DNA from: a virus
Strand: one strand, 5' to 3'
DNA length: 40,444 nt
Virus record (IMG/VR): IMGVR_UViG_3300001533_001008
Location: 1 to 40,444 of that record
Part shown: in pieces, positions 8,025 to 30,256 of the stretch
How the letters are laid out: every line of letters starts with the position of its first letter
Numbering within the stretch: position 1 is the first letter of the stretch
Translations under genes and position numbers: made by a program
The notes under the pieces: model-generated
Databases searched by the model: none
What the model was told of the DNA's origin: nothing
Seen by the model: the letters and a program-made list of their open reading frames with translations, nothing else

Positions 8025-8076
8025 TGTAGAGTTCCTCTACAGGAAGCCCCAGAGCCTTTAGGGCTCTGGGGCTTCC
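8025..8076 (-). promoter_or_regulatory. Leader of the leftward operon: two stacked hairpins
   Basis: On the minus strand a 15-bp perfect stem (arms 8042-8056 and 8062-8076, 5-base loop) is followed at once by a 7-bp stem with a 3-base GAA loop (8025-8041), then the ribosome site and start of the small terminase gene. Neither is followed by a T-tract. They sit in the 5' leader of the first late gene and may protect or process the mRNA or tune translation. An AT-rich stretch (8085-8110) lies just upstream, but no convincing -35/-10 pair could be found there. Confidence 0.6.
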
Positions 8077-8277: not shown

Positions 8278-8400
8278 ATGAGTAAAGAAACAGAAAAAGG
8301 AGGTTCTCGTCGGGGGGTGTCGGCCTCCCCCCAAAGCGTCTCCGTGGAGCGAAGCGGAACGGGAGGGAAGCGGCTGAGCGAAGCGAAGACCTTTGTATAA
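8278..8400 (+). CDS. Possible 40-codon ORF in the control region
   Basis: ATG at 8278 preceded by GGGAGG (4-base gap) opens a frame of 40 codons, Ser/Gly/Lys/Arg-rich (MSKETEKGGSRRG...), ending at a TAA that lies inside the first copy of the ACCTTTGTATAAGC repeat. Two of the GCGAAGC motifs lie within it. The ribosome site is good, but the codons overlap non-coding structure and no promoter is evident. It may be fortuitous or a leader peptide. Confidence 0.25.
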   Translation: MSKETEKGGSRRGVSASPQSVSVERSGTGGKRLSEAKTFV

Positions 8401-8508
8401 GCTGCGTGCAACGCTAGATTATACAACGAGCGAAGCGAAGTTGTACAGTGTGAAGCGAAGCGAAACACCTTTGTATAAGCGGTGGACGAGCGAAGCGAAG
8501 TCCGCCGC
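8343..8508. repeat. Five GCGAAGC-loop units with differing stems (candidate origin or regulatory array)
   Basis: GCGAAGC occurs at 8349, 8378, 8430, 8455 and 8490. In three units the loop GAGCGAAGCGAA (or GAAGCGAAGCGAA) is flanked by complementary arms that differ between units. These are TACAAC/GTTGTA (8422-8445), GTGT/ACAC (8448-8468) and a 9-bp GCGGTGGAC/GTCCGCCGC stem with one G-T pair (8479-8508). A fourth unit (8343-8361) has bulged arms; the one at 8378 has none. d(GCGAAGC) is known to form an exceptionally stable DNA mini-hairpin. Constant loops with changing stems argue for selected structure. Confidence 0.7.
8389..8480 (+). repeat. 14-bp direct repeat ACCTTTGTATAAGC, two copies
   Basis: The sequence occurs exactly at 8389-8402 and 8467-8480, 78 bp apart, each just downstream of a GCGAAGCGAA motif. 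It contains TATAA but no matching -35 box at 16-18 bp. It may be a binding site for an initiator or regulator. Confidence 0.65.
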
Positions 8509-8623: not shown

Positions 8624-8652
8624 TTGACAAGCGGTACCAGGTATGGTATACT
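8624..8652 (+). promoter_or_regulatory. Strong sigma-70 early promoter (rightward)
   Basis: Perfect -35 TTGACA (8624-8629), exact 17-bp spacer and -10 TATACT (8647-8652), with an extended TGn element (8644-8645). Transcription should start near 8659. It would be read by the host vegetative RNA polymerase and drive the whole rightward unit. The 5' leader (8660-8749) can form two 6-bp hairpins (GTTGAG/CTCAAC at about 8661-8677, and ATCGGC/GCCGAT). Confidence 0.9.
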
Positions 8653-9491: not shown

Positions 9492-9520
9492 TCTTGTTAC
9501 TCCCTTACCCGCTTACTTGT

Positions 9521-9571
9521 TCGAACTCGAACTCCAACTCGAACTCGAACACCAACTCGAACTCGAACACC
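9521..9571. repeat. Tandem TCGAAC hexamers in 18-bp superrepeats
   Basis: Six perfect TCGAAC units lie in the order two, spacer TCCAAC, two, spacer ACCAAC, two, then ACC. This is an 18-bp period repeated almost three times. It sits in the leader of the RadC-like gene. Read in that gene's frame it would encode Leu-Glu repeats (FELELQLELEH), so it is either an N-terminal extension or, more likely, an untranslated iteron-like binding array. Confidence 0.8.
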
Positions 9572-9591
9572 AGCAAGGGGGTAGTTTTGGG

Positions 9592-17723: not shown

Positions 17724-18638
17724 ATGACACTACAGGCATACCAGAAACACCATATCCTGAATAAGGCTATTGTTGAGCATCTGAAGTTCGAACTGGCAAG
17801 TCAGGGGAACAGCACCCACCCGTCCAGGGACTATTTCAGGGGCTCAGAGACGGATGCCTGCGCACGGAAGATCATGTATGCAAGGACCGGGCAAACCCGG
17901 TCCTTGCCTCTTGATCCTTCTGCGCAGGAGAAGATGCGGAAGGGTGACAGATACCAGGATTACATCCGGGAACTGATTCACCAAGCCACAGATTTTGATG
18001 TCGTACATGTGGAACGTCCACTCACTGGAACCTTTACAGCCAAGGATGGAACCGTCATCAAGTTATCCGGAAGGATTGACGGAGTTCTGCTTGCTCCTGT
18101 GGGTGAAAGTTCCAGGGGTACTGAGCGTGCTCTGCTTGAGGTGAAGACCACATCTCACTGGGGAATGATGGGCTTAAAGAAAGCCCAGTTCAAGGATCCG
18201 GAGCACTACACTTGGGGATACGTCCTGCAATGCCACAGATACATTGCCATGTGGAATGCGGCATTCCCGGATGAGCCCATCAGTAAGTTTTGCCTGTACG
18301 TCTATGATGTAAACGGAGACGCCTGTGAAGAGACAGACTTTCCTGCAATAGACTACTGGTACAAGTTCAATCCTAAGATCTGGGAACAGGAGGTGGAACG
18401 TCTTGCCACGATCGAAAGGCACATCCAAGCAAGCAGCCTCCCGGCAAGACACTACGCAGAAATCGACTGGCAGTGTACGGGGTGCTCCTACTTCTTCGAC
18501 TGTTGGCCGAAACGTGAACGAGTCTACGCTGCTCCTAAGCACGCTAAGAGAGTTGAAGAACTGGAGAAGGCTAAGAAACGTCGTAGTCGCAAACGTGTTT
18601 CCGGAGGAGCTGAAAGCGGTACGGGAAGCAATCGATGA
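17724..18638 (+). CDS. Cas4/RecB-like PD-(D/E)XK nuclease with Fe-S cysteines
   Basis: 304 residues, start 2 bp after the SSB stop. Nuclease motifs: SGRIDGV (Asp) and ALLEVKTTS (Glu-x-Lys), then a helix with CHRYIAMW. Four cluster-type Cys: one near residue 48 (DACARK) and CTGC plus a later Cys (SYFFDC) in the C-terminus, the layout of 4Fe-4S Cas4-family exonucleases. A role in DNA recombination or end processing during replication is likely. The C-terminus is basic (AKKRRSRKRV) and overlaps the helicase start. A perfect 12-bp inverted repeat lies inside it. Confidence 0.85.
   Translation: MTLQAYQKHHILNKAIVEHLKFELASQGNSTHPSRDYFRGSETDACARKIMYARTGQTRSLPLDPSAQEKMRKGDRYQDYIRELIHQATDFDVVHVERPLTGTFTAKDGTVIKLSGRIDGVLLAPVGESSRGTERALLEVKTTSHWGMMGLKKAQFKDPEHYTWGYVLQCHRYIAMWNAAFPDEPISKFCLYVYDVNGDACEETDFPAIDYWYKFNPKIWEQEVERLATIERHIQASSLPARHYAEIDWQCTGCSYFFDCWPKRERVYAAPKHAKRVEELEKAKKRRSRKRVSGGAESGTGSNR
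17880..17907. repeat. 12-bp perfect inverted repeat within the Cas4-like gene
   Basis: GCAAGGACCGGG (17880-17891) and its complement (17896-17907) flank CAAA. It is terminator-like in geometry but has no T-tract (CTCTTGATC follows). Confidence 0.7.
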
Positions 18639-27649: not shown

Positions 27650-30256
27650 CTACTTAGCCTCAGCCTTTACAAAGACTAAAGACTTGTCCTGCTTGGGACC
27701 CGGAATGAAGTGATATACCTTCTTGTTGCCATGGATTGTAATCACCCCGGCTTTACGCGTAATCTTAGCCCCATCCCGCTTCAAACCCTCGAGGACCATA
27801 TACGATAGCGTATCCTGGGATCTCATGTCCTTTAGCCAGGTATCCACCTTGGGAGCTACCTGCATAGCCCGAGCACCCAGCTCCATTTGTGTCCCGGGAA
27901 CCTGCTCTGCAACCTTCTTCACAGCCTTAGAGGCGTCTCGTACCGCATCCTGCCATATCGGATGTTCCCTTAGCGGGGCAGGTACCCTGTCAGTTGTACG
28001 AGCCAGTTCCAGCAGTTTCTTGGGGGATGACTTCTGGAGTGTCTGTAACTCCTGTGTCAACCGCAGCATCATGTCCGGATCAGATCTCTGAGCAAGCTGG
28101 AAGAGACGCTGAAGATCAGGGTTGGTTGCAGCAAGAGGCGTCTCCTTCAAAGGAGTTTCAGGTCTACCCTTGGGTTTGGGTTTGGGTTTGGGTACAGCTT
28201 TTTTCTTCGCCTTGGCAAGATTTACCGCAGCCCGAGTAGGTTGAAAGTCCGCCAGGGAAGCACCCTTTGGCCGTTCAGTGTAGTTCAAACTGAACTGCCC
28301 GGGTAACGCATCCGGGGATGTAGAAAGTTTGGGAGGTTTGGGTTTCGGAGGGATTTTCCCTCTGAGAACCTTCAGCTGCTTTTCCAGACCTTCGATACTA
28401 CCAGAGAGTAGTTTCTCCTCAGCTTTAGCTTCCCTCTGTAACTTCGGAGAGTAATCCAGAAGCAATGTTGCCCGGACCTTACCTCGCTGAGCCCTCAGGT
28501 CCGTGAGGTCTCTTTCCATCTCTACTATGCGTGCAGCAACATCCTCTGTTTCGGGTTTCTTTGGTTTAGATCCCTGGGAACCCTTGGACGCAGCTTTCTT
28601 GCTCTTAGCCTTCTGATACAGGTCAGCTACCTGACCCTTGGGATCTTCCTGGAGCTCCTGCTGAACAAACTTGTCAAACTTGGTACCCTTGCGAGGAACT
28701 TCCCCCTTTTCCAAACGAGCAGTGAACCCCTTAGCCTCTTTTACCCGCTTATCCACTAACTGAGTAAATTCAGACTTGGGTTTAGGTTTAGATTTGGCCT
28801 TAGCAGCCTTTGCCGCAGTCTCCAGAGGTTTAGGTTTAGGTTTGGGTACCGTCTCCTCCGGAGGCAGCCAGTAATCCATTCCCGTCTTCCCCTTGGGGGG
28901 CTTCATCCGACCTTTTACCGGATCAAACGTGAACTCCTGCTGCTGCTGCTTCGCCTCGGGTTCAGGTTTGGGTTTGGGTTTGGGTTTAGGTTTGGGTTTG
29001 GGTTCAGGTTTGGGTTTGGGTTCAGGTTTGGGTTTAGGTTTGGGTTCAGGTTTGGGTTTGGGTTCAGGTTTGGGTTTAGGTTTGGGTTCAGGTTTGGGTT
29101 TGGGTTCAGGTTTGGGTTTGGCTACCTTGGGCCGAGGCTTGGCTTTGGTTGAAGCCTGTGTAACCCGGGGTTTAGATAGTTTCGCAGTCCTCTCCATCAT
29201 ATCCACTGCCTGATCGTACTCAGAAGCAGTCAGATCTCCCTGATGGTACTTCTCCTGAGCTGCCTGCTTGGCAGACTCGAGTGGGGTCTTGGGAGTCTTA
29301 GGCCGGGACTTGGATACCCTGCGAGACTTGGCTGCATCCTTTAGATCCGCTTTCCGTAGCTCCTTAAACACCTTGTGCTCCTGCGGAACTTTGGCTCTAG
29401 CTACCCTTTGGATAACACTGGGCATGTCTGTCGGAACCTTGGATACATCTGCTGTGGTACCTATAGCACCCTGAGGAAAAGTCTGCGTCTGAACCGGAGC
29501 CCTGCCTGGGGATACAGGTTTGGGAGTAGCAGGTGAAGGACCACCCAACCACCAATTCAGTACCTCTTTTTCATCCAAGGCCCGTGTGCCCTGAAACTGG
29601 GGAGGGGGTGTGGAAGATCTGGGGGATACCATGGGGTGCATTCGAGCAGGACCCGGAGCTTGCGTCCGAACACCCATATCGCCCAGGCCTGGGGGCTTGA
29701 GGCCCCCAGGCTTGGGCGTAACCCGGGGGCGGATACCTGGCTTACCCCGTAGGAGCCTGTAGAGTCCTCCCAGAGCCTTCGAACCTACCTTCTGGATACC
29801 TGGCCAGGCAGCACCCAAAAGTAGGGACGTAGTGGGGTCCTCAGAGGCTATGGAGGGGTCAAACTGGGCGCCCAGGGTACGGGCAGGTACGGACATAGCT
29901 GCACCACCCCCACTACCCAAAGCAAGTCTGGCAACCCCGGAACCTACCCCCTTACCTAGCAGCAAGGGAAGGGCTTCCATACCACCTCGAACCACTCCAC
30001 CCATGAGTCTGTCTGTGAGGGGAATGGAGTCACTTTGACCCATGCCCCTCAGGGCCCGGAGGTAGTCCTCTGTGCGGTACACTTGACCCTTGGCCTGCTC
30101 CTCAGCCTCCATCCAAGCAAGCAACTCAGGGTTGGTACGAGCCAGACGCGCCTTTGCTTCCCTAAGCTCGGCATCCCCTGTTCTGCGAATGAAGTCGAAA
30201 CTCCTGCCTCTTTCGGGAGGTGCCGGAGCAGGGGGTTCTATCGGGTAGAGAGCCAT
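27650..30256 (-). CDS. 868-aa virion protein with Lys-Pro/Glu-Pro repeat tract
   Basis: ATG 30254-30256 with GAGGTGTTGTC upstream, overlapping the transglycosylase gene by 19 bp. N-terminal ~160 residues include a hydrophobic Gly/Ala-rich segment ([20 protein letters not shown]). Residues about 379-432 are a dense (KP)n/(EP) repeat, with shorter KPKP tracts near 470-490 and 690-700. Charged helices follow. PK/PE repeats form stiff extended rods, as in TonB. A role in spanning a compartment during DNA ejection is plausible inference. The repeat-coding DNA is telomere-like (TTTGGG units). Confidence 0.7.
28958..29120. repeat. Degenerate GGTTTGGGTT(T/C)A repeat encoding the Pro-Lys/Glu tract
   Basis: On the + strand the sequence is an almost uninterrupted series of GGTTTGGG, GGTTTAGG and GGTTCAGG units over about 160 bp. 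The minus strand encodes Lys-Pro and Glu-Pro dipeptides. Four or more runs of GGG separated by TTT make the + strand a G-quadruplex candidate. Copy number is likely to be unstable. Confidence 0.9.
29681..29717. repeat. 16-bp hairpin with TTGAG loop within the 868-aa gene
   Basis: GCCCAGGCCTGGGGGC (29681-29696) pairs with 29702-29717, with one G-T pair, around TTGAG. Same loop and GGGC/GCCC closing pairs as the hairpins at 522, 12620 and 13071. Confidence 0.85.

Follow-up and report, generated by a model that had tools for sequence, protein, structure and literature searches.

The window analysed here is the whole of the IMG/VR record IMGVR_UViG_3300001533_001008 (positions 1–40,444; 40,444 nt), derived from an uncultivated virus. 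Pfam and PHROGs scans of its ORFs revealed genes for TerL, portal, major capsid and internal virion proteins, as well as for PolA, a primase-like protein, an SSB-like protein, a DnaB-like helicase, RuvC and a RadC-domain protein. This gene set looks like that of a lytic podovirus. Leftward from 8010 lie the late genes, which appear to continue across the contig ends, so that these would not be physical ends. The early genes run rightward from about 8750. The 740-bp gap between the divergent late and early genes is the control region, and it holds the hairpin array and the predicted promoters listed below.

8341–8363, + strand: unit 1 hairpin, TCCGT/ACGGG arms around GGA-GCGAAGC-GGA (4 Watson–Crick pairs, 5 with one G–T)
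8372–8391, + strand: unit 2 hairpin, GGCT/AG(a)CC arms around GA-GCGAAGC-GA (4 pairs, one bulged A)
8390–8402, + strand: CCTTTGTATAAGC, copy 1 of a sequence repeat
8418–8447, − strand: predicted leftward sigma70-like promoter, TGTACA-18-TATAAT (10/12), pointing to terS, terL and the late genes, with unit 3 in its spacer
8422–8445, + strand: unit 3 hairpin, TACAAC/GTTGTA arms around GAGCGAAGCGAA (6 bp; DNA fold z = −1.6)
8448–8468, + strand: unit 4 hairpin, GTGT/ACAC arms around GAA-GCGAAGC-GAA (4 bp)
8468–8480, + strand: CCTTTGTATAAGC, copy 2, 78 bp after copy 1
8479–8508, + strand: unit 5 hairpin, GCGGTGGAC/GTCCGCCGC arms around GAGCGAAGCGAA (9 pairs, one G–T; DNA fold z = −2.1)
8624–8652, + strand: predicted rightward promoter, TTGACA-17-TATACT (11/12), facing the early genes

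Several other elements were recorded in the genome. Directly upstream of the first late gene, positions 8042–8076 form a perfect 15-bp inverted repeat (GGAAGCCCCAGAGCC-TTTAG-GGCTCTGGGGCTTCC). A relative carries a 10-bp hairpin at the corresponding place (L474, about 17748–17783), and the repeat may be a conserved late-leader hairpin. Positions 8278–8400 may form a 41-codon ORF, preceded by a plausible ribosome-binding site; it extends over units 1 and 2, and its end lies in the TTGTATAA repeat. A short tandem repeat with CTCGAA/CACC type units was noted in the RadC-domain gene, in the part coding for the N terminus (about 9518–9572). An 868-aa virion-region protein (27650–30256) has a low-complexity stretch, with a strong AT-skew swing (−0.34) at 28.5–29.5 kb.

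An earlier, sequence-only reading of this DNA had described five GCGAAGC motifs within about 150 bp, and this was confirmed: the cores start at 8349, 8378, 8430, 8455 and 8490, all on the + strand, and together span 8349–8496. The whole window holds 11 copies against 2.7 expected, a count reached in none of 100 shuffles, and the genome contains three full loops, none of them outside the array. The arms of 6, 4 and 9 bp reported in that reading correspond to units 3, 4 and 5 (the last with one G–T pair), and its bulged unit is unit 2. The unit that it took to be armless turned out to be unit 1, which has five pairs including one G–T. For scoring the arms, G–T pairs and 2×3, 3×3 and 2×2 internal loops were allowed, which gave 5, 2, 6, 4 and 9 cap-adjoining pairs; unit 2 was thus counted with only the two pairs next to its cap, and admitting the bulged A takes it to four. 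The resulting sum of 26 was reached by the true pairing alone among the 120 permutations of the right arms, and by none of 20,000 arm shuffles (p < 5e-5). The array is real and non-random, and the arm matching supports the view that it consists of structured hairpins and is not a simple repeat.

The units share a common cap design, in which a GC(GAA)GC mini-hairpin is flanked by GA/GAA, GA/GA, GGA/GGA or GAA/GAA. The mismatched bases beside the core co-vary: GGA faces GGA in unit 1, GAA faces GAA in unit 4, and GA is combined with GAA or GA in units 2, 3 and 5. In established DNA structure work, GA and GNA pairs form sheared G·A stacks, and the cap-flanking G·A bases of the array probably do the same. 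In the reading favoured below, the cap would be the selected part, and the stems would need complementarity alone. Folding against shuffled sequence, proposed earlier as a check, gave a divided answer. RNA folding of the + strand exceeded the shuffles (z = −2.2), while DNA folding of the whole stretch was uninformative (z = −0.6), and single units folded clearly better than shuffles as DNA only for units 3 and 5. ViennaRNA yielded little excess stability in the array; its parameters, as we understand them, include no extra stabilizing term for GNA triloops or sheared G·A pairs. The region had no Rfam match and no tRNA match.

The seven-base core is identical to that of the d(GCGAAGC)/GNA-loop mini-hairpins described by Hirao, Yoshizawa and co-workers, as had been recognized before; as DNA, this mini-hairpin has a Tm of about 78 °C (PMC4686876). 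Those mini-hairpins stand alone, whereas in the array G·A-type internal loops join the core to longer stems that vary from unit to unit. The link to phage N4, also suggested from the sequence, was supported as well. The N4 P1 promoter contains GTTGCGAAGCAAC, including GCGAAGC (PMC12633501), and thus has the same core and C(GAA)G triloop in a single-strand hairpin of a phage control region. The N4 virion RNA polymerase, which uses the hairpin promoters P1–P3, needs a hairpin with a 3-nt loop, a C–G closing pair and G…A loop bases (PMC4496689). GC(GAA)GC provides this loop in all five units. The N4 stems, however, continue unbroken into the triloop, whereas here two pairs are followed by two or three mismatched bases per side (GA/GAA, GA/GA, GGA/GGA or GAA/GAA) before the stem resumes. 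Nor does the window contain a gene for a virion RNA polymerase, a protein of about 3,500 aa, in agreement with the sequence-only reading: the largest ORF has 1087 aa, and no scanned ORF gave an RNA polymerase match by Pfam/PHROGs. This absence rests on the ORF scans, the Pfam RNA_pol search having been run without a positive control. The adjoining predicted promoters are of the sigma70 type by appearance.

REP/RAYT elements were the third known system compared. They too are dispersed intergenic single-strand hairpins in bacterial genomes, and GAGCGAAGCGAA is present in some REP-like copies. The stem of REPs is conserved, as is their GT(A/G)G head (PMC2817692). A conserved palindrome in many copies is not what we found here: the array stems differ from each other, they have no GT(A/G)G head at the arms, and full loops number only three in the genome. 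The Y1 (RAYT) transposase PF01797 was absent from the phage genome in a search that was positive in 5 of 14 control genomes.

Unit 3 takes up the entire spacer between the two hexamers of the leftward promoter and reaches into both of them. It thus lies between −35 and −10 of a promoter predicted from a 10/12 consensus match and not from a mapped start. N4 hairpins, including P1, extrude at physiological superhelicity, and a review reports that an E. coli sigma70 promoter lost its activity when N4 P1 was inserted between −35 and −10, and regained it upon gyrase inhibition with novobiocin (PMC4496689). Because unit 3 sits in the same kind of spacer as this engineered switch, we tentatively favour a supercoil-extruded hairpin array that gates divergent early and late sigma70-like promoters. 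Negative supercoiling, generated by gyrase and divergent transcription, would extrude the GCGAAGC-capped strand. Extrusion of unit 3 would turn the −35 and −10 hexamers of the leftward promoter out of line for the host RNA polymerase, delaying late transcription until supercoiling is relaxed or the hairpin is melted or bound by a protein. The remaining units could serve as further extrusion points or as protein sites. Of the earlier proposal, the late-promoter element is the part for which support has grown. The position of GCGAAGC upstream of terL in distant relatives, its excess in microviruses and the frequency of GA/GAA and GA/GA internal loops, all described below, also count in favour of this reading. 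Against the switch, the leftward promoter matches the consensus at only 10 of 12 positions, and the stability of N4 P1 is not transferable to unit 3, whose stem is broken by a GA/GAA internal loop; the small excess stability given by ViennaRNA points the same way. Hairpins with this type of loop are also scattered over bacteria, and we know of no such promoter role in the bacteria that carry them.

The closest relative found (IMGVR_UViG_3300009136_000009, here G001) has the same layout, with 49–52% identity in TerL, 54–56% in MCP, 39% in the portal protein and 38% in PolA. Its control region has a leftward-equivalent promoter with a full consensus match (TTGACA-19-TATAAT, 12/12) and no hairpin, which supports reading 8447–8418 as a promoter; the rightward counterpart is TTGACA-18-TACACT. 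The control region of G001 has no GCGAAGC. Thus, the array was either gained in the line of the window or lost in that of G001; it is dispensable in the lineage and is not a conserved origin or promoter. The sequence-only reading had looked to covariation among related phages, and on this point the result speaks partly against it: with no GCGAAGC in the relative's control region, covariation within the lineage cannot be shown.

A wider comparison covered 53 nonredundant loci fetched by distant TerL similarity only, one of which (L203) is contig L194, itself used in building the query. Upstream of terL, on the strand corresponding to that of the window, GCGAAGC was the most over-represented heptamer (98 copies vs. 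18.5 expected). Its density in the window's orientation was 0.8–1.0/kb at 1–2 kb upstream of terL and 0.06–0.11/kb in and downstream of the gene, while four composition-matched control heptamers stayed nearly flat across the same regions. The dsDNA phage sets selected by PolA and by MCP showed no GCGAAGC enrichment in noncoding DNA. Single-protein searches for relatives with TerL and PolA as queries found nothing, and a six-sequence TerL alignment was too divergent to use. No homologue of the window's TerL could be detected in any of 79 MCP-selected loci (L478–L556), suggesting that the head module is mosaic. DNA similarity searches with the array against phages and plasmids returned weak matches only (best E values 0.6 and 0.1), and several of the weak phage matches fall between microvirus genes.

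Among microviruses (63 nonredundant contigs fetched by capsid protein), noncoding GCGAAGC occurred 26 times on the packaged strand vs. 1.6 expected and 4 times on the other strand vs. 0.7. About half of the 26 represent one orthologous intergenic site, so the independent cases are nearer ten. This enrichment fits a role in single-stranded DNA, without proving it. In gokushovirus-like ssDNA phages among the microviruses (L567–L646, e.g. L592:3167), we also observed a conserved intergenic motif of the GGCAAGCGAAGCGCGGCAG...AGCACTAATACTAC type, a candidate replication-related site.

The loop itself is not confined to this phage. GAGCGAAGCGAA with variable matched stems was found in many unrelated genomes, both of bacteria and of unrelated phages. 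In a set of 48 loci fetched solely for two GCGAAGCGAA copies 10–40 bp apart, matched arms in the GAGCGAAGCGAA register were present in 7 (0.31 expected), an excess not seen when G or GA was removed from the front of the register. Of 93 bacterial sites chosen without regard to arms, 10 had arms of at least 4 bp (0.54 expected), again register-specifically, and in some bacterial genomes the 12-mer far outnumbered its reversed control (87:0, 36:4 and 29:0). When all fetched loci were pooled, GCGAAGC inside stems of at least 5 most often had no internal loop beside it; where there was one, GA/GAA (14) and GA/GA (5) were the most frequent. The GA/GAA enrichment is partly due to loci fetched with GCGAAGCGAA patterns. 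Arrays of several such hairpins were seen in other viral contigs: a noncoding one upstream of a Dda-like helicase (L176), a 140-bp stretch with six GAGCGAAGCGA-type loops ahead of a TerL (L145), and those of the related contigs L131, L178 and L187, in which one stem reads CCCTTCG/CGAAGGG or CCCTTTG/CAAAGGG while its loop stays almost the same. Nearly unit 3, but with a GCA loop, is TACAAC-GAGCGCAGCGAG-GTTGTA in a phage record of 4.5 kb. REP-like copies (CATTGC/CATTAC-GAGCGAAGCGAA-GCAATC/GTAATC) occur in several phyla with co-changing inner pairs (CATTGC...GCAATC, CATTAC...GTAATC); the form GTCATTRC-GAGCGAAGCGAA-GYAATC, likewise with co-changing inner stem pairs, was seen in distant phyla (L281, L300, L302, L326, L359 and others). 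A bias in hairpin orientation relative to the flanking genes (11:2) became 0:5 in an independent sample and was dropped.

These data define the main rival to the promoter switch, a widespread and possibly neutral hairpin class without a specific phage role, which we consider somewhat doubtful. According to this proposal, GAGCGAAGCGAA is a fold-back seed: any flank could become a matched stem, because a DNA end inside the cap would snap back and copy its own flank, and copies would disperse, or multiply locally, between genes and be tolerated there. The many unrelated genomes, the arms at unselected bacterial sites, the excess over the reversed control and the existence of REP-like copies all agree with it, as does the absence from the closest relative of an element scattered elsewhere across phyla. 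It accounts less well for the crowding of five copies into 160 bp of a single control region with no full loop elsewhere in the genome, for the concentration of GCGAAGC at one position and strand in the distant TerL relatives, and for the lack of any full loop in 2.4 Mb of protein-selected viral DNA.

The main idea of the sequence-only reading, that the one-strand hairpins are single-strand initiation or initiator-binding structures at a phage origin, now seems distinctly unlikely. The phage does encode a PolA, a primase-like protein, an SSB and a DnaB-like helicase of its own, the array lies in noncoding DNA at the divergence point, and gokushovirus-type ssDNA phages carry GCGAAGC at a conserved intergenic site on the packaged strand. 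The cumulative GC-skew minimum, which had been proposed as a check, was located near 6–8 kb; it coincides with the switch in gene direction, which the skew follows, and is not independent evidence of an origin. G001 lacks the array despite having the same replication module, and no initiator gene was recognized. We regard it as improbable that the hairpins act in the transcript, in processing, stability or regulation, perhaps together with the 41-codon ORF and its plausible ribosome-binding site. The + strand RNA folding favours such a role, and so does TTGTATAAGC, which lies in the first CCTTTGTATAAGC copy and can form alternative pairs with sequence at the left arm of unit 3 (8416–8426). Against it, enrichment among the common hairpin loops of viral noncoding DNA is strongest for the C(GAA)G triloop (17 vs. 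0.9), though GNRA tetraloops are enriched too (9 vs. 0.9); nor does the region have an Rfam match or a good + strand promoter upstream of the array. A packaging site, with repeats beside terS/terL recognized by terminase or used in concatemer processing, appears very improbable. The distance from the array to the gene preceding terL, which lies downstream of it, is about 330 bp, and GCGAAGC clusters upstream of terL in the distant relatives; G001, with a TerL about 50% identical, has no array, and the late genes apparently cross contig ends that are not physical ends.

A broader interpretation is one that we consider unlikely. GAGCGAAGCGAA and its GAA/GAA, GGA/GGA and GCA-loop variants would be a general natural DNA hairpin cap, a mini-hairpin stacked on G·A-type pairs, used by many prokaryotes and their viruses with freely evolving stems as supercoil-driven switches; the array would then be a natural version of the engineered N4-hairpin promoter switch. 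In the literature searched, we found no description of the constant-cap/variable-stem arrangement, and judging by titles and abstracts, none of the five papers there that contain the GAGCGAAGCGAA string was concerned with it.

The comparison singles out GAGCGAAGCGAA on variable stems as a recurrent cap, recognizable from sequence in bacteria and phages. Even if the class is neutral, it tests how matched stems arise around a constant loop. If the promoter-gating reading is true, the array would represent natural and easily tested DNA-hairpin genetic switches outside the N4-type phages.
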